Below, in pieces: positions 42,192 through 62,359 of a stretch of DNA of 64,000 bases. Origin of the DNA: a virus. The position numbers were made by a program, and so were the translations under genes. The notes below the pieces were generated by a model that was not told where the DNA came from, searched no databases, and saw only the letters and a program-made list of their open reading frames with translations. The stretch covers positions 1 through 64,000 of IMG/VR virus record IMGVR_UViG_3300008267_000072; one strand, given 5' to 3'. The stretch's first letter is position 1; each line of letters starts with the position of its first letter.

Positions 42192-42965
42192 ATGAAAACA
42201 ATAGTATTAGTTTCAGGCGGCTTTGACCCTTTACACAGCGGACATGTTTCTTATTTTGAAGAAGCTAAAAAATTAGGTGACGAATTATGGGTTGGTGTAA
42301 ATTCTGACGCATGGTTAGTTAGAAAAAAAGGCAGACCATTTATGCCTTTTGCAGAAAGAACAAACATTATTCGAAATCTTAGAATGGTTGATCAAGTTTT
42401 AGGTTTTGAAGATGATGAAATTGGCAGCAGTAATCATTGTATAGAAAAAATTCTTGACTTGACAGGAATGGACACAAAGATAATTGTAGCCAATGGCGGC
42501 GACAGAAATCCAGGAAATATACCTGAAGTAATCAAATACGGAAATCATCCAAGGGTAGAATTTGCATGGAGCGTGGGCGGCGACGACAAAAAGAATAGCA
42601 GCAGTTGGATTCTAGAAGAATGGAAAAATCCAAAGACAGTGCGTAATTGGGGTTGGTATAGAGTGCTTGACGACAAGCCTGGCTATAAAGTAAAAGAACT
42701 AGTTATCGAACCTGGAAAGAGTCTTTCAATGCAAAGACATTTTTTAAGATCTGAACATTGGTATGTTCTCAAAGGCAAATGTATTTTAGAAACAGAATAC
42801 AATAATATCAGTCAAAAAATTACATTGTCAGAATTAAGTTCGGGCTACATAATAGAAAATAAAGTATGGCACAAGGCCTATAATTGTACAGATGAATTAT
42901 GCCACATTTTAGAAGTGCAATACGGCGAAGAGTGTGTGGAGAGTGATATTGAACGTAGAAGTTAA
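42192..42965 (+). CDS. Nucleotidyltransferase-cupin fusion
   Basis: A 257-residue two-domain protein. Residues 1-140 form a cytidylyltransferase-type nucleotidyltransferase (VSGGFDPLHSGHVSYFEEAKKLGDELWVGVNSD, with the HSGH catalytic motif at 15-18). From about 155 a cupin follows (GWYRVLDDKPGYKVKELVIEPGKSLSMQRHFLRSEHWYVLKGK), resembling type II mannose-6-phosphate isomerase/cupins. It would activate a sugar or polyol phosphate and possibly epimerise or isomerise its product. Both domain types are common alone; the fusion is less so. It overlaps the next gene by 32 nt. Confidence 0.75.
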   Translation: MKTIVLVSGGFDPLHSGHVSYFEEAKKLGDELWVGVNSDAWLVRKKGRPFMPFAERTNIIRNLRMVDQVLGFEDDEIGSSNHCIEKILDLTGMDTKIIVANGGDRNPGNIPEVIKYGNHPRVEFAWSVGGDDKKNSSSWILEEWKNPKTVRNWGWYRVLDDKPGYKVKELVIEPGKSLSMQRHFLRSEHWYVLKGKCILETEYNNISQKITLSELSSGYIIENKVWHKAYNCTDELCHILEVQYGEECVESDIERRS

Positions 42966-47280: not shown

Positions 47281-48462
47281 ATGCTAAAAAACATCGAAGA
47301 CATCATTGAGTTTATAAAACTATCTGACATTGCCTCTGTCTCTGATAAAGGTATTCTTTATAGTATTGCACGACAAATTGCTCGTAATACTGCATTAACT
47401 GATCTTCAGTTCGAACTTGCAAAAAATAAGATACGTGCATATCAAGAACAGATAGTGTTGGAGTTTGAAACACCTGCCGATTTTGAATCAGCACTCGACA
47501 CACTGCGTCAGCCTCTACGTTCAGTTGACAGAACAAAAACTGTCACTGTTAACAGCAACGGAATGATATCTGTTCGGTTTCCGTTTAACAAAAAAACTAT
47601 TGTGTTGATTGAAGAACTTGCATCAAAGTTACGACGTTTTTACAAACACGAAAAAGGTTCTCACGAGCATTATTTTAAATTCAACGAACTAACTGCGGAA
47701 GCAGTAGTAGAAAAATTTAAAGAAAAAAGTTTTTACATTGAGCCCGATTTACTCGAACACTACGAAAAAATCAAAGAAGTTCGTGCAGAGAGTGCAAATC
47801 TTATTCCGGGTGTATACAACAACGAACTGCGTAACTTTAGATCATCTGCAATCGAGTTAATGGAATCAGAACTGGGCCCGTTAAACAGCAGCAATCTTAT
47901 GATGTATTTTGACCGTAGAGAACGTTACGGTATTGCTCGTTTTGAGTTTGATCAACCCAACGGACTGCTTGGCGAAATGTTGTATAGACAAGATGGACAG
48001 ATTGCTGTTAGCCCAACAAAATACAAACTACACGAAGTGGTTGAAGTATTGTATCAACTGCAACGCTTTCCTTTGCTGGTGCTGGTGGACGAGGAAAACT
48101 CATTGACCCAAGTTTCTGCAATATATAACGCTGTGTCCAATGTTTATTCCAGCGCAGAGCAGACTGTGTTGTTTAGAATTGAAAATGACAAAAAGACAGA
48201 GTACAATCTAAATAATTTCATTAAAGACAATAACTTAAACAATTGGCTTGACAAAAGTACTAAAGTTGTGTATATTAGTAAGAATAAACTGCCAAAACTG
48301 CTACTGCGTAGCGATTGGCAGCCAATGGCTGTTTTAGGGTTATCTAGTTTGAGATCAAACAATTCTGTACAAACTTATACTCTTGATGCAACTGATTTAG
48401 TTGTGTTTTACGACGAGGATCTCAGCCTAATTAGAAAAACAAGAACAAATGGGCACTACTAA
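47281..48462 (+). CDS. Large unknown protein coupled to uvsW
   Basis: A 393-residue protein with no Cys-based or Walker motifs. It has a charged N-terminal region with LRQPLRSVDRTKTVTVNSNGMISVRFPFNKKTIVL, a middle helical segment, and a C-terminal third (FPLLVLVDEENSLTQVSAIYNAV, DLVVFYDEDLSLIRKTRT) that looks like an alpha/beta domain. It overlaps uvsW by 14 nt, so translation is coupled. The overlap suggests a partner or regulator of the UvsW helicase. I do not recognise the family. Confidence 0.6.
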   Translation: MLKNIEDIIEFIKLSDIASVSDKGILYSIARQIARNTALTDLQFELAKNKIRAYQEQIVLEFETPADFESALDTLRQPLRSVDRTKTVTVNSNGMISVRFPFNKKTIVLIEELASKLRRFYKHEKGSHEHYFKFNELTAEAVVEKFKEKSFYIEPDLLEHYEKIKEVRAESANLIPGVYNNELRNFRSSAIELMESELGPLNSSNLMMYFDRRERYGIARFEFDQPNGLLGEMLYRQDGQIAVSPTKYKLHEVVEVLYQLQRFPLLVLVDEENSLTQVSAIYNAVSNVYSSAEQTVLFRIENDKKTEYNLNNFIKDNNLNNWLDKSTKVVYISKNKLPKLLLRSDWQPMAVLGLSSLRSNNSVQTYTLDATDLVVFYDEDLSLIRKTRTNGHY

Positions 48463-49906
48463 GTTAATTATTGAAGACGAAGTTAATATTAAGTTTGAAG
48501 GACTCGACGTTGATGTTCGACGCAAACTTTCTAACACATTAAAATTTGATGTCCCGTATGCACGCCATATGCCTCAGTTTAAACTAGGCAGATGGGACGG
48601 TAAGGTTGGCTTTTTTGGTATTGGAGGATCGGGCTATCTAAATCATTTAGATGTGTTGCTGCCAATACTTGAACAAAATGGTATTTCAATTTCTGAAATT
48701 GAAGATCGTCGAAATCCAATCAATATAAATTTTACACCAGTGACTGAAGAATTTTGGGGAGACGTATGTTGGCCAAAAGGACACAGATTTGAAGGCGAAC
48801 CTGTTAGGCTAAGAGATGACCAAGTAGAAGTTATCAATCGGTTCTTGGAGAATCCACAAAGTTTACAAGAAGTGTCAACTGGTGCTGGTAAAACAATTAC
48901 CACAGCAACATTATCAAAAGTTTGTGAACCATACGGACGTACACTGATAATTGTTCCTAACAAAAGTCTAGTAGAACAAACCGAAGATGACTACAAAAAT
49001 TGTAGACTAGATGTTGGTGTATATTACGGTGACAGAAAAGACTTTGGCAAGACACACACTATATGCACATGGCAAAGTCTTAACATTCTCGAAAAACGTC
49101 ATAAGAATGGCGAAAGCACATTTGGATTGGACGAGTTTTTAGATGGTGTAAGTGCAGTTATTGTTGACGAAGTACACCAAGCAAAAGCAGAAGTATTAAA
49201 AGCAATACTAACACAGAACTTGAACAACTGCCCGATACGTTGGGGAGTGACTGGAACTATTCCAAAAGAGGATTATGAATTCCAAAGTATACTAGCAAGT
49301 CTTGGTCCAGTAATAGGATCTGTGACTGCAAAAGAATTACAAGACAAGGGTATCTTGTCTGCATGTCATGTTAACATATGTCAGTTGATTGACACCAAAG
49401 AATTTAGAGATTATCAGGCAGAATTAAAGTATCTTGTAACAGACGAAAAACGTTTAGATTACATCAGCAAACTTTTATTAAAAATTAAAGATTCAGGCAA
49501 CACACTTATTTTAGTAGACAGAATTACAGCAGGCGTAGAGTTACAAAAACTTATTCCTGGCTCTGTGTTTATCAACGGTGCAGTAAAAACCAAAGACCGT
49601 AAAGAAACATACAACGAAGTACAAGACGCTACCAACATGGTTATTATTGCTACCTATGGCGTGGCAGCAGTTGGTATTAACATACCACGCATATTTAATC
49701 TTGTACTGTTTGAGCCGGGCAAAAGTTTTGTACGTGTTATTCAATCAATAGGCAGAGGCGTTAGAAAGGCAAAAGATAAAGACTTCGTACAGATATGGGA
49801 TCTTACAAGTACTTGTAAGTTTGCGAAGCGGCATCTGGCTCAACGTAAAAAGTATTACGCAGAAGCTCAATACCCGTTTACTCTCGAAAAGATTGATTGG
49901 AATTAA
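48449..49906 (+). CDS. uvsW: UvsW, DNA/RNA helicase
   Basis: A 485-residue superfamily 2 helicase. The N-terminus (KIIEDEVNIKFEGLD-like block, then RHMPQFKLGRWDGKVGFFG) is the UvsW DNA-binding domain. VSTGAGKTITTATL (Walker A, about 141-154), VIVDEVHQAKAE (DEVH box, about 237-248), GVTGTIPKEDYE (motif III) and VIQSIGRGVRKA (motif VI, about 429-440) give the full helicase set. T4 UvsW, about 500 residues, unwinds branched DNA and R-loops and switches replication from origin to recombination mode. It is the last recognisable recombination gene here. Confidence 0.9.
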   Translation: MGTTKLIIEDEVNIKFEGLDVDVRRKLSNTLKFDVPYARHMPQFKLGRWDGKVGFFGIGGSGYLNHLDVLLPILEQNGISISEIEDRRNPININFTPVTEEFWGDVCWPKGHRFEGEPVRLRDDQVEVINRFLENPQSLQEVSTGAGKTITTATLSKVCEPYGRTLIIVPNKSLVEQTEDDYKNCRLDVGVYYGDRKDFGKTHTICTWQSLNILEKRHKNGESTFGLDEFLDGVSAVIVDEVHQAKAEVLKAILTQNLNNCPIRWGVTGTIPKEDYEFQSILASLGPVIGSVTAKELQDKGILSACHVNICQLIDTKEFRDYQAELKYLVTDEKRLDYISKLLLKIKDSGNTLILVDRITAGVELQKLIPGSVFINGAVKTKDRKETYNEVQDATNMVIIATYGVAAVGINIPRIFNLVLFEPGKSFVRVIQSIGRGVRKAKDKDFVQIWDLTSTCKFAKRHLAQRKKYYAEAQYPFTLEKIDWN

Positions 49907-51410: not shown

Positions 51411-52262
51411 ATGAAATATCTTGTTACCGGTCACCAAGGTTTCATCGGAAGTTATTATTATAATAGAGTATACCCTGATGCAATAGGCTGCGATCTTCAA
51501 AGTCATCAAGATTTAAAAGATTGCAACTTTGTGCAGACTTTGCCAGATGTTGACGTAGTTGTACATCTGGCAGCAACTAACGGAACCAAACTGTTTTATG
51601 AACAGCCCGTAGAAGTTGCATTTAATAATACATTGCCAACATTTAATCTTGTTGACCGGTACAGGAATACCAACACTAAATTTGTGTTTGCCAGCACCTG
51701 CGAAATTTTTAATGGTGCAGTAGACACGGGGATTTATCCTGTACCCACTGACGAGCGTGTTCCTATATTATTTCAGGACATCGAAAATCCAAGATGGAGT
51801 TACAGTATCCCAAAAGCACTAGGAGAAAATCTTGTTATTAACTCCGGCATGCCTTGGTTGGTTATTCGTTACTTCAATATCTACGGACCTGGTCAAAAAG
51901 ATCATTTTGTATCAGAATTTGTCCAGCGTGTAAAAAAACAAGAGTATTATATCAACGGTAATGATACTAGAAGTTTTTGCTATATCGACGACGCAATTGA
52001 AATGACTCATCAATTGATTTTAAATCATAGCAATCGTATTGTCAACGTAGGACACCAGGATGAAATTGAAATAAGTACTGTTGCAAAAATTATCATGGAA
52101 ATCATGGGTGTTGATCCTAATTTGTTAACTGTGCATCCTTCGCCAAAAGGCAGTGTAACAAGACGTTGTCCGGACACTGCACTGGTTCAAAAGTTAACAG
52201 GATTTACAAAGTATACAACACTGTATAATGGGTTAAAAAAAACAATAGAAAGTTTATTATGA
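51411..52262 (+). CDS. NAD-dependent sugar epimerase/dehydratase
   Basis: A 283-residue extended SDR. GHQGFIGSYY (about 7-16) is the dinucleotide-binding GxxGxxG loop, DVVVHLAATNG follows, FASTCEIFNG holds the catalytic Ser/Thr, and WSYSIPKALGE is the YxxxK pair. The last third (RYFNIYGPGQKDHFVSEF) is the substrate side. Enzymes of this type interconvert nucleotide sugars, such as UDP-glucose to UDP-galactose or dehydrate them. It begins a sugar cassette that ends in kdsB. It overlaps the next gene by 4 nt. Confidence 0.85.
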   Translation: MKYLVTGHQGFIGSYYYNRVYPDAIGCDLQSHQDLKDCNFVQTLPDVDVVVHLAATNGTKLFYEQPVEVAFNNTLPTFNLVDRYRNTNTKFVFASTCEIFNGAVDTGIYPVPTDERVPILFQDIENPRWSYSIPKALGENLVINSGMPWLVIRYFNIYGPGQKDHFVSEFVQRVKKQEYYINGNDTRSFCYIDDAIEMTHQLILNHSNRIVNVGHQDEIEISTVAKIIMEIMGVDPNLLTVHPSPKGSVTRRCPDTALVQKLTGFTKYTTLYNGLKKTIESLL

Positions 52263-53053
52263 AAATTGGAATAGTTGGTATGGGTATTGTAGGCAGTGCA
52301 AATGCCGCAGGATTTACACTATTGGGTCATCAGGTTAAGAGCCATGACATTAAATTTGATACAACTCTCAATAACGTACTAGATACTGAGATTATATTTT
52401 TATGTGTTCCAACTCCCACAGACGATTCTAACAAATGCAATACATCGATTGTTGAAGAAGTTATTTTCGAATTGAATAAAAAAGAATACAGCGGTATTAT
52501 TGCAATAAGAAGTACTGTAACTCCTGGATTTACTGAAAAAGTAATTGAAAAATATCCAAATTTAATAATTTGCTTTGTTCCAGAATTTTTAAGAGAACGT
52601 TGTGCAGCAGACGACTTTATTAATAATCATCAACTGTTGGCTGTTGGAACAAATGACGTTTATGTTTATCAAAAGATTATTTCTGCTCACGGACATTTAC
52701 CAAAAAATTCTAAACAACTAACACCAACAGAAGCAGAGATTTTAAAATACTTTAACAATGTATATGCAGCACTTAGAATTACATTTGCAAATATCATGTA
52801 CGAAGTTTGTGAAAAATTTAATTGCGATTATAGTTTGGTTAAAAATTCCTATATACTTACTGGAAAATCAAACGACTTATATCTAGATGTAAATAATAAT
52901 CTTAGAGGTTACGGTGGAATGTGTTTGCCAAAAGACGTCAAAGCATTAATATCAATACTCAACGATCATAATTTAAATTTTAACTTGATTAACAGTATCG
53001 ACCAAGATAACGAAAAAGTTAAAACAACTGTGTTTAATGGTATGCGAAAATGA
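52259..53053 (+). CDS. Nucleotide-sugar dehydrogenase-like protein, truncated
   Basis: A 264-residue protein of the UDP-glucose/GDP-mannose dehydrogenase family. KIGIVGMGIVGSANAAG is the NAD-binding loop, IIFLCVPTPTDD and IIAIRSTVTPGFTE follow, PEFLRERCAADDF and LKYFNNVYAALRITFANIMYEVC form the second domain, and GYGGMCLPKD contains the catalytic Cys222. Known members are about 390-450 residues; this one ends soon after the Cys, so the C-terminal sugar-nucleotide-binding domain is absent. It might need a partner or may use a different substrate. Overlaps both neighbours by 4 nt. Confidence 0.8.
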   Translation: MKIGIVGMGIVGSANAAGFTLLGHQVKSHDIKFDTTLNNVLDTEIIFLCVPTPTDDSNKCNTSIVEEVIFELNKKEYSGIIAIRSTVTPGFTEKVIEKYPNLIICFVPEFLRERCAADDFINNHQLLAVGTNDVYVYQKIISAHGHLPKNSKQLTPTEAEILKYFNNVYAALRITFANIMYEVCEKFNCDYSLVKNSYILTGKSNDLYLDVNNNLRGYGGMCLPKDVKALISILNDHNLNFNLINSIDQDNEKVKTTVFNGMRK

Positions 53054-53307
53054 CAAAATTAATTCCGGGTGCAGCACTTATTTACGAACGAGTAAACGGT
53101 ACAGTATATGCTAGATACAGAGATCCGCCGCACAATACAATACCAAGATGGGTAATAGGTGGTACAGCAGACTCGCTTGCAATGGAAAATATATTTTCAT
53201 TTTCTGAATGGCAAGAGATGATACAACTAGCAAAAAAACATCAGACACTTAAAAACGAACTTGACAAATTAAAAATGATTTACTACATTTGTAGAGAAAG
53301 TAAATAA
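53050..53307 (+). CDS. Small conserved protein of unknown function
   Basis: An 85-residue protein. LIPGAALIYERVNGTVYARYRDPPHNTIPRWVIGG is a block I associate with small hypothetical proteins of marine T4-like phages, followed by a helical C-terminus with a charged segment (KKHQTLKNELDKLK). It starts 4 nt inside the preceding gene and precedes kdsA by one base after its stop. No function is recognised. Confidence 0.65.
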   Translation: MTKLIPGAALIYERVNGTVYARYRDPPHNTIPRWVIGGTADSLAMENIFSFSEWQEMIQLAKKHQTLKNELDKLKMIYYICRESK

Positions 53308-53308
53308 T

Positions 53309-54094
53309 ATGAAAATAATTGCCGGCCCATGCCAACACGAATCATACGCTCAAAGTTTAGAAATTGCACAACATTGTAAAGCAGTTTGCGATGACTACGG
53401 TATTGAATATATTTTCAAAGCCAGTTTTGATAAAGCAAATAGAACACACATCAACGGAATTCGTGGACAAGGTTTACATTCCACTATGCGAGATTTTGAA
53501 GAATTAAAATCTCGCATATCCAACTTGAAAACATTGACAGATGTTCATTCACCTGCTAATATTATGATGATCACCGAGGGGTATGACGATGCAGTTGACG
53601 TACTACAAATACCTGCTTTTTTATGTAGACAAACTGATTTAATTCATGCAGCATGTAAGAGTAAAAAAATTGTTAATATTAAAAAAGGACAGTTTCTTGC
53701 ACCTTGGGATGTGGCAGGAATTTTAAGTAAGACTGAACCTGCAAAAGAAGTTTGGATAACAGAACGAGGAACTAGCTTCGGATATAATACTTTAGTGGTT
53801 GACTTTACTGGGATGCAGTATATACTTGATAATTATAACGTACCGTTGATATTCGATGCGACACACGCTGTTCAAAAACCCGGCGGCCAAGGAAACTCCA
53901 GTGGTGGGAATCGTGCTTATGTACAGCCTCTGTGTCGTGCAGCCAGTGCTATGGGTGTTAGTAACTTCTTCTTAGAAGTACACCCTGATCCTGACAATGC
54001 ACCCAGCGATGGTCCAAACATGATAAAACTAAACGACTTTGATAAAATAGTAAAAGAAATTTACGACTTTAATTACAACAGGAGAACACAATGA
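53309..54094 (+). CDS. kdsA: Kdo-8-phosphate synthase
   Basis: A 261-residue DAHP/Kdo8P synthase family TIM barrel that condenses PEP and arabinose-5-phosphate to Kdo-8-phosphate. KIIAGPC, KASFDKANRTHINGIRGQG, DVHSP, QIPAFLCRQTDL, NIKKGQFLAPWD, ERGTSFGYNTLVVDF, FDATHAVQKPGGQGN and EVHPDPDNAPSDGPN match Aquifex/E. coli KdsA throughout. The Cys in IAGPC is that of the metal-dependent class (E. coli has Asn). Kdo is the inner sugar of Gram-negative LPS. It overlaps the Pal-like gene by 4 nt. Confidence 0.9.
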   Translation: MKIIAGPCQHESYAQSLEIAQHCKAVCDDYGIEYIFKASFDKANRTHINGIRGQGLHSTMRDFEELKSRISNLKTLTDVHSPANIMMITEGYDDAVDVLQIPAFLCRQTDLIHAACKSKKIVNIKKGQFLAPWDVAGILSKTEPAKEVWITERGTSFGYNTLVVDFTGMQYILDNYNVPLIFDATHAVQKPGGQGNSSGGNRAYVQPLCRAASAMGVSNFFLEVHPDPDNAPSDGPNMIKLNDFDKIVKEIYDFNYNRRTQ

Positions 54095-54657
54095 AAAAAC
54101 TTACACTTGTCGCTGCTATGCTTGTAGGCACCGCAGCAATTGCACAAACTGCACCACCAGAAGATATTAAGACTTATGTTAACGATCAAATCACCGATGC
54201 TGTAACACAACTAAACAATTCCATTACTGGCCACAAGTCAGAACTTCAAACACAGATTGAAGTTTTAGAAAAACAAATGGTTGAACTACAGTCGGTTATT
54301 GATGAAATGACACGCAGAGATGACATTGGGCATTCTCGTGCATTCTTCAATTATGATGGATATATTGCTACTACTGAAAGTAATACACTTATTGACGAAG
54401 TAGCAAAGTTTATGAAGGATTACCCTGCATATACTGTGACTATCGAAGGTCATGCAGATGAGCGCGGAACAAGAGAATATAACTTGTACCTAGGAGAAAA
54501 ACGTGCATCGGCACTCAAAGATAGTCTTGTTGCTAAAGGTATTGATGCTAATAGGATCCAAACAGTTAGTTTTGGAAAAGAACGGCCGGCGGTACTAGGT
54601 TCAAATGAAGTTGCATGGTCACAGAATCGCCGTGGCGTATTTGTGTTATATAAATGA
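54091..54657 (+). CDS. Secreted Pal/OmpA-like peptidoglycan-binding protein
   Basis: A 188-residue protein. MKKLTLVAAMLVGTAAIA, cut before QTAPPED, is a typical signal peptide with an AxA site; there is no lipobox Cys, unlike bacterial Pal lipoproteins. A coiled coil follows at about 30-75. The OmpA/Pal domain (about 80-188) has VTIEGHADERGTREYNLYLGEKRA and VSFGKERPAVLGSNEVAWSQNRR, and keeps the Asp and Arg used to bind diaminopimelate in peptidoglycan. It would sit in the periplasm. It lies between kdsA and kdsB, overlapping both. It may compete with host Pal at lysis, or help alter the envelope. Confidence 0.8.
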   Translation: MKKLTLVAAMLVGTAAIAQTAPPEDIKTYVNDQITDAVTQLNNSITGHKSELQTQIEVLEKQMVELQSVIDEMTRRDDIGHSRAFFNYDGYIATTESNTLIDEVAKFMKDYPAYTVTIEGHADERGTREYNLYLGEKRASALKDSLVAKGIDANRIQTVSFGKERPAVLGSNEVAWSQNRRGVFVLYK

Positions 54658-55328
54658 CCACAGCAGTTTTAATTCCGGCTAGATTAGCCAGTACTAGGTT
54701 TCCAAAAAAAATGTTGGCCAATCTTAATGGCCAACCATTGATTCATCACGTGTTTAATAAATGTTGGAACTTTGGATATGAAACCTACGTGCTTACTGAT
54801 AGCCAAGAAATTGCCGACATTCTTCCAAAAAAGCGAGTAATAATGACCAGTACTGATCACGAAAACGGTACTAGTCGTTGTATGGAAGTTATTGACGAAG
54901 TATTGCAATATGATCGATACATTAACGTACAGGGCGACATGCCCGATGTTACTGCTGAAATGTTAATGAAAATTGACATAGAACTAAAAACATTTTCGGA
55001 TGTTGCAACAGCATATTCTACTATGGATGTTAACGATCGTCAAAATCCAAACGTTGTTAAAATGATTCACAACAGAAGCAGAGCCCATTGGTTTTTAAGA
55101 GCACCGTTGTCATATGGTGATAGACATTTAGGAATTTACGGTTATAATAGAATTGCTAAGTCATACTATAATGTAAGTAAAAAGTTTGTAGAAGAAGACA
55201 CTGAGAAACTTGAGCAATTGCGCTGGATTCAAAACGGTATCAAAATTGGTGTTGTTGAAGTTGAATTTGATGGAATTGAGATTAACACACCGGAGGACTT
55301 GAAATTATGGGAAAAAACAAATACATAG
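54654..55328 (+). CDS. kdsB: CMP-Kdo synthetase
   Basis: A 224-residue CMP-Kdo synthetase that activates Kdo with CTP. IPARLASTRFPKKML is the nucleotide loop, TSTDHENGTSRCMEVIDEV matches the T-xxDHxxGTxR signature, YINVQGDMPDV has the metal-binding QGD (E to M change after the D), HLGIYGYN is the dimer/sugar strand and EINTPEDLKLWE is the C-terminal helix. E. coli KdsB is 248 residues. With kdsA it supplies CMP-Kdo; no Kdo8P phosphatase or WaaA-like transferase is recognisable, so the host or unidentified genes complete the route. It overlaps the next gene by 22 nt. Confidence 0.9.
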   Translation: MTTAVLIPARLASTRFPKKMLANLNGQPLIHHVFNKCWNFGYETYVLTDSQEIADILPKKRVIMTSTDHENGTSRCMEVIDEVLQYDRYINVQGDMPDVTAEMLMKIDIELKTFSDVATAYSTMDVNDRQNPNVVKMIHNRSRAHWFLRAPLSYGDRHLGIYGYNRIAKSYYNVSKKFVEEDTEKLEQLRWIQNGIKIGVVEVEFDGIEINTPEDLKLWEKTNT

Positions 55329-55777
55329 ATCTCTTCGACGACATGATGCCAGCAATTGACTTGGGCATCAAAGAGTTGTGGGATGCCTCTGACGAAAACG
55401 GACAAAAAGATATCAAAGGCGACCTTTGGAATCTCAATAGATATGTTAGTAGTGTTAAAGGTAGTAGAGACAAACAAGAACTAGCAGTCTTTAAAGTTAA
55501 TGAATATTACAATAAGAACTGGGCAGTGCTGGGAGCAAATCATCCAAAACTGCAATGGCAATTACTATGCATTTCGGGCAATACAGGAAAAAAAGAATTT
55601 CATCCATGGATTAAACTAGATAGAAAAGCAGATTCCAGTTCGAAGACTGTACAATTTTTAATGAAACTTTACCCTGACAAAAAACTAGACGAGGTTGAAC
55701 TAATTGCTAGAATATCTACAAAAGAAGAAATCAAACAACTTGCCAAAGAACACGGCTACGAAAAAATTGACATCTAA
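55307..55777 (+). CDS. Conserved protein, possibly gp62-like clamp-loader subunit
   Basis: A 156-residue protein. DLFDDMMPAIDLGIKELWDA, KGDLWNLNRYVSSVKGSRDKQELAVFKVNEYYNKNW and CISGNTGKKEFHPWIKLDR resemble a protein conserved in marine T4-like phages. The order of a hydrophobic block, a WIKL-like strand and a C-terminal helical tail (FLMKLYPDKKLDEVELIARISTKEEIKQLAKEHG) parallels T4 gp62, the small clamp-loader subunit. That link is a pattern judgement only. gp44, gp45 and gp43 are not in the window. The start overlaps kdsB by 22 nt. Confidence 0.45.
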   Translation: MGKNKYIDLFDDMMPAIDLGIKELWDASDENGQKDIKGDLWNLNRYVSSVKGSRDKQELAVFKVNEYYNKNWAVLGANHPKLQWQLLCISGNTGKKEFHPWIKLDRKADSSSKTVQFLMKLYPDKKLDEVELIARISTKEEIKQLAKEHGYEKIDI

Positions 55778-56450
55778 GCCCTATGTATGCGAATACTGCG
55801 GCACAGGCTACAGCAAGGAGCAAACTCTCCTTGTACATATGTGTGAACAAAAGCGTAGACATTTACAAAAAGACGAAAAGCGTGTTCAACTGGGCTATCA
55901 AACATTTGTAAGATTCTATCAACTGAGTGCAGGCTACAAAGGCATCAAAACCTACGAAGAATTTTGTAAAAGTTCTTTCTACAATGCGTTTGTAAAGTTT
56001 GGTAGTTTCTTATCCAATGTTAGACCATTATACCCCGAAAAGTACATAGACCATGTTGTAACCAGTGGCGTTAAACTCGACCATTGGTGCAGAGAAGAAA
56101 TGTATGAAAAATACGCTGTTGAACTAATCATGAAAGAAGGTGTTGAAACTGCACTTGAGCGTAGCGTTAATACCATGGTTGATTGGGCAGAAACACACAA
56201 CAACTCTTGGAATAATTATTTCAACAACGTTTCGTTAAACAGAGCAACATACGATATCAAAGACGGTAAGATATCGCCGTGGCTGATATTAAACTGCAAG
56301 TCAGGAAAAGAAATGCTTGCAAAATTTAACGACGAACAACTAACCATGGTATACTATATTATGAATCCAGAACACTGGTCTTTGCGTTTTAAACGACAAC
56401 CCAAAGATGTTGAACTGGTCAAGCAGATTGCAGGAGAAGCAAAACTATAA
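55767..56450 (+). CDS. Zinc-finger-containing conserved protein
   Basis: About 227 residues. The start is uncertain: the frame runs back to 55704, and TTG 55740 or TTG 55767 are candidates without good ribosome-binding sites. The protein begins near KPYVCEYCGTGYSKEQTLLVHMCEQKRRH, a C2H2-like zinc finger (CxxC, then H-x-C or H-x(5)-H). The rest (LGYQTFVRFYQLSAGYKGIKTYEEFC, WLILNCKSGKEML, MVYYIMNPEHWSLRFKRQP) looks like a conserved family with no known fold. It lies between the possible clamp-loader gene and the mini-polymerase gene, so a replication role is likely. Confidence 0.55.
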   Translation: MTSKPYVCEYCGTGYSKEQTLLVHMCEQKRRHLQKDEKRVQLGYQTFVRFYQLSAGYKGIKTYEEFCKSSFYNAFVKFGSFLSNVRPLYPEKYIDHVVTSGVKLDHWCREEMYEKYAVELIMKEGVETALERSVNTMVDWAETHNNSWNNYFNNVSLNRATYDIKDGKISPWLILNCKSGKEMLAKFNDEQLTMVYYIMNPEHWSLRFKRQPKDVELVKQIAGEAKL

Positions 56451-57004
56451 TGGATATCGATATTGACTTTCCAAACCGCGATATAATTTTGTCAAAACTC
56501 ACACATCACGTGGCTGCACTAGAAACTGGTAAAAAACACAACACCGGAATCTATGTTACTCCGGTGCCACACAATCCATTGGATAACGTTGCAACTATTG
56601 ATTATAAAACTGCTGATCAACGTGGGTACTTTAAACTAGACTTTCTAAACGTTAATATCTACAAGGATGTTAAAGACGAAGAACACCTAACTGAATTGCT
56701 GAACCGTGAACCACTTTGGGAATTGTTACAACACAATGAAATGGTAGATCAACTGTTTCATGTATCTGGTCATGGTGATATTCTACGAACGTTAAAGCCC
56801 ACTAACATTGAAGAATTGGCATGTGCGTTGGCTATTATTAGACCGGCTAAAAGATATTTGCTAAATGAAAGTTGGGCAAAGATCAAAAGCGAAGTTTGGA
56901 CAAAGCCAGCGAATGATCAGTACTACTTTAAAAAGGCCCATGCTGTGTCTTACGCGGCAGCAGTTGTAGTACATTTAAATTTATTATGCGAAAATATTAT
57001 CTAA
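56450..57004 (+). CDS. Miniature DNA polymerase III alpha-like protein
   Basis: A 184-residue protein that looks like a compressed DnaE palm. DIDIDFPNRD (residues 2-11) matches the DxDxDF motif with two catalytic Asp. TGIYVTPVPHNPLDN, then QRGYFKLDFLNVNIY (about 58-71), match GGVVIxP...VKFDFLGLxxLT; D64 is the third catalytic Asp. LWELLQHNEMVDQLFHVSGHGDILRTLKPTNIEELACALAIIRPA matches the LLxxxxTxxVFQxES...LKxxxPxxFEDxIALxALxRPG block, and FKKAHAVSYAAAVVVHLNLL matches FNKSHSAAYAL. PHP, most of the fingers and the clamp-binding region are absent. A polymerase, inhibitor or repurposed fold is possible. It converges with the next gene. Confidence 0.7.
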   Translation: MDIDIDFPNRDIILSKLTHHVAALETGKKHNTGIYVTPVPHNPLDNVATIDYKTADQRGYFKLDFLNVNIYKDVKDEEHLTELLNREPLWELLQHNEMVDQLFHVSGHGDILRTLKPTNIEELACALAIIRPAKRYLLNESWAKIKSEVWTKPANDQYYFKKAHAVSYAAAVVVHLNLLCENII

Positions 57005-57365
57005 GTTTTTTAATTAATTGAACACTTTTACGTTTTACTCGTTTCAGTGCTAGATTGTTAAGATTAACGCAATGCCCTATGACTAACTTAACATCTTTGC
57101 TGTTCATGGTCATCATACAATAACGCAAAGGTTCAATTTCTCTTCTGAGAAATGTGTTAATAGGAATCAATCTATTTGACTCCCACCACCATACTTCGCC
57201 TAGATCCAACAGCAACTTTTTGTGATCATCTGATTTCAAATTTGTATAAACAAACATTGTTGTAACGTACTGATCTTGATTTGATATGATTCCAACATAT
57301 TCGCCGCCGCCATAAGCAACAACACTAACGTAAGGAAATTGTTCTTCTATTTCTTTTAATAACAT
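56997..57365 (-). CDS. Conserved small protein of unknown function
   Basis: I start at the ATG at 57365 (122 residues), MLLKEIEEQFPYVSVVAYGGGEYVGII, because the frame's upstream part would overlap the divergent gene at 57400. YVTTMFVYTNLKSDDHKKLLLDLGEVWWWESNRLIPINTFLRREIEPLRYCMMTMNSKDVKLVIG and a basic C-terminus (RVKRKSVQLIKKLR) look like a family I associate with marine T4-like phages. It resembles a translational or nucleic-acid-binding protein, but no fold is identified. Its 3' end overlaps the mini-polymerase gene by 8 nt. Confidence 0.6.
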   Translation of the reverse strand: MLLKEIEEQFPYVSVVAYGGGEYVGIISNQDQYVTTMFVYTNLKSDDHKKLLLDLGEVWWWESNRLIPINTFLRREIEPLRYCMMTMNSKDVKLVIGHCVNLNNLALKRVKRKSVQLIKKLR

Positions 57366-57370
57366 TTTAC

Positions 57371-57378
57371 CATAAATA
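57371..57378 (+). promoter_or_regulatory. Late promoter motif CATAAATA
   Basis: CATAAATA lies 21 nt before the ATG at 57400, with GAGG (57389-57392) as ribosome-binding site. It is also close to the start of the minus-strand gene. Confidence 0.5.
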
Positions 57379-57399
57379 TATCTGTAATGAGGAATCGGT

Positions 57400-58185
57400 A
57401 TGCAGTTAATCCCTAGATATTTATTTAACGATAGAATAATTCTAGTATCTAATGAAGCCGGATTCGTAGTGGAGTATAGACCTGTGTATACTAGAAACTT
57501 AAAAGTATATAGAAATATTGATAATACCATACAATTTAAACTGTTAAATGCTGATCAAAAAAGTGTATCACTTGCAGGCTACAGTGTATGGATAGTATTG
57601 TTTGACGAAAATCAAAGCATGGTACTGGAAAAAGAATGCACAGTAACTGACGACTACTCAACTGCATCTCCACTAAAAGGCACATTCCAAGTTACCCTCA
57701 CAGACAACGAGTTGCGAGATGTTAAACAACAATACCTACACTACAACGTATATCTCAAAGATTTAAACAACAACACCAGTTTAACATATTCAAACAGAAA
57801 TTTTGAAACTTCGGGTATCATGTATATCAATGCAGGTGCGTATCCCGGACCTCGTGCTACAACAGAAGTTACAAACTTTTTTGCAGAAAGCACCTATTGG
57901 GTAGGCAGCAGTGACAACGAAGATGCTATTGCATTATCAGAATATTCAACACTACATACTGCGGCTGTATACTCAAACGGTTATACTGGTACTGTCATTG
58001 TACAAGCAACATTGGACAATCAACTGTCAAACGCCAACAACTGGTCGGATGTTGATACACTAACATTCGTTGGCAGCGAAACAGAACCTGTGCCGGTAAA
58101 TTTCAACGGCATTTACTCGTATGTTAGATTTAAGTTTAATGCAGACCCAACTGCAACTGTAGACAAGATACTGCTAAGAAACTGA
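57400..58185 (+). CDS. Putative virion structural protein
   Basis: A 261-residue beta-rich protein. The first half (KVYRNIDNTIQFKLLNADQKSVSLAGYSVWIVLFDENQSMVLEKECTVTDDYSTA, YNVYLKDLNNNTSLTYSNRNFETSG) has the layout of Ig-like domains seen at the N-termini of tail-tip proteins. The second half (YWVGSSDNEDAIALSEYSTLHTAAVYSNGYTGTVIVQATLD) resembles a carbohydrate-binding-type sandwich. With a late motif upstream, it is likely a tail or baseplate decoration protein. It lies far from the tail genes, just before the primase. Confidence 0.6.
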   Translation: MQLIPRYLFNDRIILVSNEAGFVVEYRPVYTRNLKVYRNIDNTIQFKLLNADQKSVSLAGYSVWIVLFDENQSMVLEKECTVTDDYSTASPLKGTFQVTLTDNELRDVKQQYLHYNVYLKDLNNNTSLTYSNRNFETSGIMYINAGAYPGPRATTEVTNFFAESTYWVGSSDNEDAIALSEYSTLHTAAVYSNGYTGTVIVQATLDNQLSNANNWSDVDTLTFVGSETEPVPVNFNGIYSYVRFKFNADPTATVDKILLRN

Positions 58186-58219: not shown

Positions 58220-59203
58220 ATGAGCATCGTGTCCGAAACACTAATGACCTTCATGCCTGCAAAGCGTAAAACCACGCCCAGCGGATGGACATCGATCAAT
58301 GCTCCGTGCTGTGTACACAATGGTACGTCTGCTGATACACGTATGCGTGGTGGTGTTAGAGAAGAAGGCGACACGTTTTCCTATCATTGTTTCAACTGCG
58401 GATTCAAGGCCAGTTGGCAACCTGGAAGAAATGTTTCTTATAAGTTTAAACAATTGATGAGTTGGTTAAACGTTCCTGACGATGTTATTAACCGGTTATC
58501 GCTGGAAGTGTTAAAACTCAACGAAGGCATTGAAGTACAACAACGCTTTGTAGACTTGCCTGTCTTTGAAGAAGTTCAACTTCCACCAAACAGCATCAAG
58601 ATCACAGATATCACTGACAATCAAAAACTTGAACCTATAAAAGAATATCTAGCAAAACGTCAATTGCATTTGGATGCTGATTACAATTTTTATTGGAGTT
58701 CAGAACTTGGATACAGAGATAGATTTGTAATTCCTTTTTACTATGAAGGTAAAACCGTAGGATGGACTGCTAGAACTATTACCCCTGATAAGAAACCCAA
58801 ATACATTACAGAATCACAGCCGGGGTTTGTGTTTAATCTAGATGAACAACGCCCACAAAAAATATTCTGTATTGTTGTGGAAGGTCCTATTGATGCACTG
58901 CACATTGACGGAGTTGCTGTTATGCGAGCAGAGATAAATGATCAACAGGCAATGCTGATTGATCGTTTGAACAAAGACACAATAGTTTTACCCGACAGAG
59001 ACGAAACCGGTGCTGGAATGGTTGAACAGGCTATTGCCAGAGGGTGGAGTGTTAGTATGCCTGAATGGTCACCGGAGATCAAAGACGTAAATGACGCCGT
59101 GATAAAATACGGAAGACTATATACACTGTACAGTATTGTAGCGGCAGCAGAGTCGTCGCCACTTAAAATTAGATTGAGAGCAAAAAAATGGTACGCAAAA
59201 TAA
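58220..59203 (+). CDS. 61: DNA primase gp61
   Basis: A 327-residue primase. Residues 30-60 form a zinc finger (C30, C31/H33, then CFNC at 57-60) that recognises the priming site. FVIPFYYEGKTVGWTAR begins the catalytic half; VVEGPIDALHIDG (about 218-230) is the Toprim Glu-Asp motif, and TIVLPDRDETGAGM (about 254-267) supplies the second acidic pair. T4 gp61 is 342 residues. It makes RNA primers with the gp41 helicase, encoded 1.7 kb downstream. Confidence 0.9.
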   Translation: MSIVSETLMTFMPAKRKTTPSGWTSINAPCCVHNGTSADTRMRGGVREEGDTFSYHCFNCGFKASWQPGRNVSYKFKQLMSWLNVPDDVINRLSLEVLKLNEGIEVQQRFVDLPVFEEVQLPPNSIKITDITDNQKLEPIKEYLAKRQLHLDADYNFYWSSELGYRDRFVIPFYYEGKTVGWTARTITPDKKPKYITESQPGFVFNLDEQRPQKIFCIVVEGPIDALHIDGVAVMRAEINDQQAMLIDRLNKDTIVLPDRDETGAGMVEQAIARGWSVSMPEWSPEIKDVNDAVIKYGRLYTLYSIVAAAESSPLKIRLRAKKWYAK

Positions 59204-60928: not shown

Positions 60929-62359
60929 ATGACAACCAGACAAAACACTGACTACGGATACGATATACAAAAACTATATCTTGAAATGATGCTCACAGAC
61001 GCAGAAACGTTTGTGCGCTGTCAAAGTGTTTTTGATGACAAGAGTTTTGATCGCAAACTACAACCAGCAGCAAAGTTCATCAATGACTACGTTACTGATC
61101 ACAATGCCATGCCCACGTTTGAAATGGTCAATGCTACCACAAAGTCTGGACTGATCAATCCAGGCGAACTGCAAATAGAACACTATGATTGGTTGCTTGC
61201 TGAGTTCGAAACCTTTGCACGTCACAAAGCATTGGAAGCAGCCATCTTAAAGAGTGCCGACCTGCTGGAAAAAGGCGAATACGGTCCAGTAGAAGATCTA
61301 GTTAAGCGAGCAGTACAGATCGGACTGCAAAAAGATCTAGGCACAGACTACTTCCGCGATCCTCGAAAAAGATTGGAAGCCATCAAAGACAAAAACGGAC
61401 AGGTAAGCACAGGCTGGCCCAGTCTTGATAAGAAACTGTTTGGTGGATTCAACAGAGGTGAACTCAACATCTTTGCAGGCGGTTCGGGTGCAGGCAAAAG
61501 TTTATTCTTGGCTAATCTGGGCGTTAACTGGGCGCTCAACGGTATGAACGTACTGTATCTAACTTTCGAACTGTCAGAAAATCTAGTTAGTATGCGTATT
61601 GATAGTATGGTTACAGATATTCCAACACGTGATGTTTTCAAGAGCATTGACGACGTCGAAATGAAAGTCCGGATGATCGGCAAGAAGTCGGGTGCTATGC
61701 AGGTCAAGTACATGCCCACCGGTAAGACTGCAAACGATCTACGCAGTTATATCAAAGAATATGAAATCAAAACCAAGAAGCGTTTGGACGCAATACTGGT
61801 GGACTACTTGGATCTTATGATGCCAATTTCAGTTAAGGTCAGTGCTGAAAATCTATTCGTCAAGGACAAGTATGTCAGTGAAGAACTGCGTAACCTAGCA
61901 ATGGAATTGAACTGTGTGTTTGTAACAGCAAGCCAACTCAACAGAGGCGCAGTAGAAGAGATTGAATTTGACCACAGCCACATTTCGGGTGGTATCTCAA
62001 AGATCAACACTGCGGATAACCTGTTTGGTATCTTTACCAGCAGAGCAATGCGTGAACGCGGTCGCTATCAACTGCAACTTATGAAGACACGTAGCAGTTC
62101 GGGTGTGGGCACAAAGATAGATCTAGACTTCAATGTTGAAACACTGCGTATCACAGATTGTGAACAGGAAGATGACGGATCGGGTGCAGGGCCGCAGCAG
62201 AAAAGTTCTGTGTATGAACAACTAAAACGTTCAGCAGCAAAACCAAAAGCCCCAGATGAACCAGCAGATCCAGGTCGCGGCACACCAGCAGGTCGAGTCA
62301 ATGCAGAAGTTGACAGCACCAAACTACGACAGTTCTTGAGCAACCTCGGAGACAGTTGA
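60929..62359 (+). CDS. 41: Replicative helicase gp41
   Basis: A 476-residue hexameric DnaB-type helicase, matching T4 gp41 (475). The N-terminal ~150 residues bind primase. GGSGAGKS (about 184-191) is Walker A, NVLYLTFELSENLVSMRID (H1a), LDAILVDYLDLMMP (Walker B), VTASQLNRGA (H3) and SGGISKINTADN (H4) follow. The C-terminus is Pro/Lys-rich (AAKPKAPDEPADPGRGTP). It unwinds the replication fork and pairs with gp61. A weak AAAGAAATAAAAG ribosome-binding region precedes the ATG. Confidence 0.95.
   Translation: MTTRQNTDYGYDIQKLYLEMMLTDAETFVRCQSVFDDKSFDRKLQPAAKFINDYVTDHNAMPTFEMVNATTKSGLINPGELQIEHYDWLLAEFETFARHKALEAAILKSADLLEKGEYGPVEDLVKRAVQIGLQKDLGTDYFRDPRKRLEAIKDKNGQVSTGWPSLDKKLFGGFNRGELNIFAGGSGAGKSLFLANLGVNWALNGMNVLYLTFELSENLVSMRIDSMVTDIPTRDVFKSIDDVEMKVRMIGKKSGAMQVKYMPTGKTANDLRSYIKEYEIKTKKRLDAILVDYLDLMMPISVKVSAENLFVKDKYVSEELRNLAMELNCVFVTASQLNRGAVEEIEFDHSHISGGISKINTADNLFGIFTSRAMRERGRYQLQLMKTRSSSGVGTKIDLDFNVETLRITDCEQEDDGSGAGPQQKSSVYEQLKRSAAKPKAPDEPADPGRGTPAGRVNAEVDSTKLRQFLSNLGDS

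Follow-up and report, generated by a model that had tools for sequence, protein, structure and literature searches.

What is a 184-residue protein that carries the palm and fingers blocks of a bacterial DNA polymerase III (Pol III) alpha subunit: a small enzyme, the remnant of a large one, a protein that acts on other polymerases, or one part of an enzyme whose other part is encoded elsewhere? This question is raised by an ORF in a viral sequence (IMG/VR record IMGVR_UViG_3300008267_000072). The window, that is, the whole stretch of DNA that was analysed, comprised positions 1 to 64,000 of this record. A first-pass annotation had described the product as a shrunken Pol III alpha palm/fingers piece, either a small catalytic remnant or a protein that interacts with host replication. 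The ORF is the following:

56450-57004, plus strand: probable C-terminal half of a split minimal DNA polymerase III alpha, 184 aa, PHROG_11778 (based on sequence, profile, and fold)

The ORF starts with an ATG, which overlaps by one base with the stop codon of the upstream ORF, and its 184-aa product is called the C-half below.

The C-half belongs to a family of phage proteins

All sequence blocks that had been quoted for the product were found in the ORF, i.e. DIDIDF, FKLDFL, LFHVSGHGDILRTLKP, AIIRPA, and FKKAHAVSYAA. Their DnaE-type order is real and far beyond chance, as shown by many phage relatives and by a match to PHROG_11778 ("DNA polymerase") that spanned residues 1-183 with an E-value of 2.9e-62. 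The Pfam finger domain scored 14.7 bits and was below its cut-off of 22, and NCBIfam returned DnaE matches exclusively below threshold. A match to the T3SS protein YopR in Pfam and NCBIfam was far below the cut-offs in both and was taken as chance.

At E<=0.01, a tblastn search with the 184-aa protein retrieved 76 phage records, the best at 3e-50, and at least 80% of the query was covered in 59 of them. The 60 best of these 76 records include jumbo phages similar to RaK2 and PA5oct as well as large phages of other kinds. Full-length DnaE was considered as the source of the matches and was rejected; 13 of the 76 records carry Streptomyces names, and the one that was opened, Celeste, encodes a DnaE of 1159 aa. 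A search of IMG/VR yielded 46 loci with relatives. The idea of a cellular family was also discarded, as the ten loci on genome contigs (L173-L182) were all situated in metagenome-assembled genomes of unrelated phyla and look like phage contigs that were binned with their hosts or by error.

By sequence alone, the similarity to solved Pol III structures is weak. The single 184-aa sequence had no phmmer match among the PDB chains, and therefore a family profile was needed, which reached a best E-value of 9.3e-4 with solved Pol III. A global hhalign comparison of the C-half family with the single E. coli DnaE sequence produced no alignment.

The catalytic aspartates are in register with those of DnaE

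Residue conservation was quantified with 60 sequences, 48 of which remained after removal of identical ones; at three loci (L041, L044, L046) the sequence is truncated by the end of the contig. The following residues were invariant and were placed in register with E. coli DnaE:

56453-56461, plus strand: D2 and D4 (codons 2-4), register of E. coli D401 and D403, 47 of 47 rows with letters
56633-56641, plus strand: K62 and D64 (codons 62-64), register of E. coli K553 and D555, 48 of 48 rows
56840-56845, plus strand: R131-P132 of the fingers block, register of E. coli RPG 639-641, 48 of 48 rows
56939-56941, plus strand: H164 of KKAH, register of E. coli KSH 758-760, 46 of 46 rows

Among the 48 distinct relatives, D6 was invariant alongside D2 and D4 (47 of 47 rows with letters), and so was Y168 (46 of 46 rows). 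The first-pass annotation had proposed that three catalytic Asp are kept and had placed them at D4, D6, and D64. The third position stood, D64 being invariant, whereas the register gave D2/D4 instead of D4/D6 for the pair. In E. coli DnaE, the letters at these places are P400-D401-F-D403-V-D405 and F554-D555, and HMMER aligned profile positions 2-12 (DIDIDF...) with DIDIDFDDRRR of M. tuberculosis DnaE1. Because of this alignment and the E. coli motif register, the three catalytic palm Asp of Pol III alpha correspond by register to D2, D4, and D64, and not to D4, D6, and D64; D401, D403, and D555 are presumed to be the catalytic Asp of E. coli DnaE. Structural comparison with VIA introduced a doubt of one residue, as model residue 1 was put on E. 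coli 401, which would set D2 on 402, whereas its counterpart was residue 462 in T. aquaticus and residue 420 in M. tuberculosis. The motif and M. tuberculosis D421 (7pu7 numbering) support D2/D4 as the predicted pair.

The fold is that of Pol III, with several parts missing

AlphaFold2 modelling of the 184-aa protein with 20 family members resulted in a pLDDT of 90.7 and a pTM of 0.76; the alignment drew on 20 of the 60 C-half sequences, and isolate-phage sequences were left out. The first 16 Foldseek rows for this model were Pol III-type polymerases (query TM 0.31-0.48), and just five matches were found at E<=0.001. With VIA, Pol III-type polymerases filled the top 14 rows (Z 6.3-9.8, 168-183 residues aligned, rmsd 3.2-4.5), and the next row had a Z of 3.7. 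In seven of the 14 rows Z was at least 8, and in the other half it was below 8. The VIA rows 9qrn, 9qpc, and 9qrl, which are titled "DNA polymerase" only, are presumably PolC. Together, PHROG_11778, the VIA superposition, and the conserved Asp bear out the description as a shrunken Pol III alpha palm/fingers piece. For the predicted clustering of the three Asp in space, the indication is this superposition on solved Pol III.

Model residues 1-184 superposed on E. coli DnaE 401-780, i.e. 380 residues have shrunk to 184. The C-half shares with bacterial DnaE and PolC the palm Asp and the FDFL-type, RP, and KSH-type blocks in the same order, as well as the fold over E. coli 401-780. In contrast to these enzymes, it has 184 instead of 380 residues and is devoid of the PHP domain, the thumb, the RRAMGKK stretch, the clamp-binding part, and the OB domain. 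The thumb of Pol III alpha sits between the DxD motif and the third Asp. The D4/D6/D64 spacing had been singled out for verification; by register the pair is D2/D4, and the distance from D4 to D64 is 60 residues, compared with 152 from D403 to D555 in E. coli. This spacing leaves no room for a thumb, and none was found between DxD and the third Asp in the 184-aa protein, where the model shows short strands and helices. The interval between the RP and KSH blocks comprises about 22 profile positions, whereas E. coli and M. tuberculosis have about 110 there, and E. coli RRAMGKK (709-715) falls inside the absent stretch. The PHP, clamp-binding, and OB domains had no Pfam match, and a chain of 184 aa that matches 401-780 has no room for them. 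The GRGS motif is also absent from the chain, which begins with MDIDID, after the motif position. The thumb and the RRAMGKK stretch are needed for binding of dNTP and duplex; because both are missing, polymerase activity of the C-half system is not assured.

The C-half is short in comparison with the 1160-aa E. coli DnaE, as would be expected of a decaying remnant of a full-length DnaE taken from the host. We regard this explanation as extremely improbable. The 48 distinct sequences are conserved with invariant catalytic residues, neighbouring genes are conserved (see below), and the boundaries are similar in many lineages. The dN/dS values of the C-half were 0.03-0.58 over 67 pairs (dS 0.05-1.5), and, judged by these values, the C-half is under purifying selection. 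Conservation and purifying selection thus argue against decay.

The other half of the palm is encoded separately in relatives

A Pfam palm search (PF07733) of nine C-half records revealed a second, separate locus in eight of the nine, and it detected no such N-terminal half (N-half) in the window's own 66,109-base record. In relatives, the N-half is encoded by an ORF of its own, which is about 170-193 aa long and includes a GRGSS motif, and the four proteins that were scanned all belonged to PHROG_11127. A profile of five N-half proteins aligned to E. coli DnaE 270-393. One N-half was modelled with AlphaFold (pLDDT 89.8, pTM 0.63) from an alignment that drew on 26 of 80 N-half loci. VIA superposed its residues 79-173 on E. 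coli residues of about 279-393, and the top 14 rows were again Pol III-type (Z 7.6-12.2, next row 2.6). Foldseek found no match for this model at E<=0.001, the best being 4.5e-3. Residues 1-78 of the N-half (L084:4001-4234) fall outside the Pol III-matched region.

The boundary of the N-half was determined for 78 of the 80 loci; L083 and L149 lacked an ORF of the motif pattern. From the W of WGxGRGSS to the chain end exactly 36 residues were counted in 66 of the 78 ORFs, and the other 12 were 1-9 residues longer past the motif. The usual end, EFL[KR] or similar, corresponds to FLN393 of E. coli, and the C-half begins at D401. With these boundaries, the two halves together cover the DnaE palm; they do not overlap, and nothing but residues of about 394-400 is lost. 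The available passages of the CBB genome paper (PMC5259590) note a truncated alpha-like protein of 172 aa, which is probably the N-half because record KU574722 carries the label "DNA polymerase III alpha" at the N-half place; at the C-half place, the label is "putative membrane protein".

A break at the same junction was found in Tenacibaculum phage Larrie (ON950054), the DnaE of which is divided into two ORFs between the FLN block and PDIDxDF. Unlike the halves of the jumbo phages, the Larrie ORFs are large and adjacent, have PHP, finger, and HHH matches, and occur in a genome that has no family B polymerase match; Larrie matches the N-half profile through this full-size DnaE. The hhalign probability between the C-half family and the C-terminal Larrie ORF was 5.7; nevertheless, the stretch from FKLDFL to RP was in register. 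The first Larrie ORF (L156:3146-6726) extends into an additional tail of about 55 residues, for which Pfam showed no match.

Because the GRGSS palm half is a separate protein in relatives, the C-half is better described as one of two parts of a divided enzyme than as a complete enzyme of small size, so that the earlier notion of a small catalytic remnant is only partly supported. In this respect the C-half system also differs from DnaE and PolC.

The two halves mostly lie in different replication gene clusters

The neighbourhoods of 51 C-half loci, which include the window and query genomes, were compared. The conserved neighbours in the window are as follows:

55704-56450, plus strand: upstream gene, PHROG_11058, with a sub-threshold C2H2 zinc-finger match; relatives in 47 of 51 C-half loci
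56997-57530, minus strand: opposite-strand neighbour, PHROG_11637; relatives in 46 of 51
58220-59203, plus strand: DNA primase, PHROG_47, with sub-threshold Pfam Toprim matches; relatives in 42 of 51
60929-62359, plus strand: DnaB-like replicative helicase, PHROG_19; relatives in 40 of 51
48449-49906, plus strand: DNA helicase, PHROG_16, pooled with RaK2 uvsW; relatives in 39 of 51

Many of the misses are due to short loci, yet three loci of 20 kb each (L047, L048, L049) also lacked most of the conserved neighbours. Both ends of the PHROG_11637 ORF overlap with a neighbour, one with the polymerase half and the other with the ORF of the next gene. An epsilon-type exonuclease beside uvsW (RaK2 ORF117) was considered as a conserved unit and dismissed, as it occurred in one of the 51 loci, namely RaK2 itself.

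Downstream of the N-half gene and on its strand, 62 of 78 loci contain a clamp loader gene of the gp44/RFC type, at a distance of 716-3753 bases. Of the 16 loci without it, 13 have less than 3.2 kb of downstream sequence and three have 4 kb (L086, L118, L126). A gp44-type gene was present in one of the 51 C-half loci. Based on their respective neighbours, the two halves lie mostly in two different replication clusters; an exception is phage Slicko01, in which an RFC-type clamp loader precedes the C-half by about 1.4 kb.

Several further observations were made in the window. A carbamoyltransferase gene (PF02543/PF16861, 59301-60803) lies between the primase and DnaB helicase genes, which are adjacent in Sinorhizobium phage Phosso and RaK2. 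Sugar-nucleotide genes surround the replication genes (42192-42965 and 51411-55328); they are heptose kinase/adenylyltransferase-like, nucleotide-sugar epimerase, UDP-glucose dehydrogenase-like, and cytidylyltransferase genes.

The main rival explanation concerns the reaction catalysed. The halves could form a nucleotidyltransferase that acts in end-tailing or in nick or primer processing, instead of a templated polymerase. The loss of the thumb and the RRAMGKK stretch would be compatible with such an enzyme, as would the retention of the catalytic Asp and GRGSS. However, the invariant R131-P132, H164, and Y168 suggest that contacts to template and dNTP are still needed, and the genomic neighbours encode primase, helicase, and clamp loader. 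We therefore consider a non-templated enzyme unlikely.

The halves co-occur with each other and with a family B polymerase

A profile search revealed the N-half in 15 of 15 isolate phages that carry the C-half, and the same 15 genomes with both halves all had a family B polymerase match. As near relatives are included (CM1/RAS14; CBB/BF), these are not 15 independent cases. The 15 include 12 isolate genomes that were searched after the nine C-half records, with an N-half in 12 of 12; 11 of them had been chosen for the C-half and one, RAS14, for the N-half, and the RAS14 C-half was then found. The earlier assignment to a phage group with a family B polymerase is thus in accordance with the 15 isolate relatives. 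In one set of 18 records, 17 had a family B polymerase, the exception being Larrie, so that it was present in 17 of 17 split-pair records. Among nine C-half records it was found in six, and the misses were contigs of 118 and 175 kb and the window's own record, a 66-kb fragment without a family B polymerase match.

The best 60 of 76 tblastn records for the C-half and the best 60 of 146 for the N-half had 57 records in common. Two of the records solely on the C-half list (MG592671, OR228459) were later found to contain the N-half, and the third was PP728206. Solely on the N-half list were RAS14, which holds a C-half, Larrie, which does not, and OR844993. The converse check covered 12 of the 80 N-half contigs and two isolates. 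The C-half was present in five of six N-selected contigs of more than 200 kb and in none of six contigs of 74-132 kb; the contigs may be incomplete. The Alishewanella phage Slicko01 (L071), which with 141 kb is under the 200-kb jumbo limit, has both halves and a family B match.

The sequence distances of the N-halves and C-halves were correlated (Mantel r 0.861, 17 genomes, 0 of 9999 permutations as high). Seventeen of 18 genomes were used, because the Atu_ph07 N-half was missed by the motif pattern. At the level of sequence, this correlation shows co-inheritance of the halves, which shared ancestry alone would produce.

These results also bear on a role of the C-half alone, or as a non-catalytic DnaE mimic that modulates the host replisome or the family B polymerase. 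The C-half gene does stand alone, and its palm is incomplete without the N-half. However, a non-catalytic mimic would not need the invariant metal-binding Asp and K62, and the N-half is co-encoded in all 15 isolate genomes. The DnaE parts that bind tau, epsilon, and beta are, moreover, among those absent from the C-half. We judge such a role to be quite improbable.

A probable split, minimal family C polymerase

We consider it likely, taking all lines of evidence together, that the 184-aa protein is one half, for catalytic metal and template, of a minimal family C polymerase made up of two proteins. The GRGSS nucleotide-binding palm half would come from a second protein of about 173 aa, the gene of which lies at a different place in the complete phage genome; the phage from which the window derives presumably has this N-half as well. 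The two halves would associate across the point of a short loop in DnaE (about 394-400) and would thereby rebuild one active site of the Pol-beta type with D2, D4, and D64. The split enzyme may be a distributive polymerase that carries out short synthesis alongside the family B replicase, for instance to extend primers or to fill gaps. Distributive short synthesis appears most likely because a thumb and PHP, clamp-binding, and OB parts are not present, and high processivity appears unlikely because the thumb, the clamp-binding parts, and the RRAMGKK stretch are missing. We infer the mutual binding of the halves, DNA polymerisation by the complex, and its role at the fork from this evidence.

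The earlier statement that no equivalent had been described turned out to be incorrect. The available passages of Iyer et al. (2021, PMC7824862) describe, based on genome comparison, a minimal Pol III alpha that is split into two standalone proteins and that group 2.2 jumbo phages have in addition to a family B polymerase. They suggest that the split enzyme cooperates in the synthesis of one strand or in repair, and they take it to model the ancestral enzyme. The 184-aa protein is a member of this published family and not a new kind. It is the same standalone C-terminal half for Mg2+ and template, its relatives have a distant gene for the NTP-binding N-half and a family B polymerase, and no essential difference was seen, the window stemming from a 66-kb fragment. 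No mention was found in these passages of the junction position, the register of D2/D4/D64, the loss of the finger stretch, or the linkage of the halves to clamp-loader and primase/helicase genes.

Parts of the family have also been recognized elsewhere. The available text of the Atu_ph07 paper (PMC6102473) mentions a predicted subunit alpha of Pol III that most RaK2-like phages have conserved, a PolB-type polymerase is named in that of the RaK2 paper (PMC3622015), and a note in the fENko-Kae01 record already ties the C-half to E. coli alpha by HHpred. A term search of the main text of a 2026 jumbo phage review retrieved neither "polymerase III" nor "DNA polymerase", and the titles and abstract beginnings of later open-licence literature contained no biochemical study of the split family.

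The gene order, which ties the halves to primase/helicase and to the clamp loader, leads to a further reading that we regard as doubtful but conceivable. At a fork with two polymerases, the thumbless two-subunit family C polymerase of about 360 aa would extend primers and hand them to the family B replicase. Such handovers take place from DnaE to PolC in B. subtilis and from Pol alpha to Pol delta. If this applied, the split enzyme would be, to our knowledge, the smallest family C replicase, and the ancestral core could be modelled on it. A palm of family C that works as two chains and consists of the catalytic core only would define the minimal bacterial replicase needed for catalysis. It would also raise the question of why a second polymerase, of the bacterial type, is kept by a phage that already encodes one of family B.
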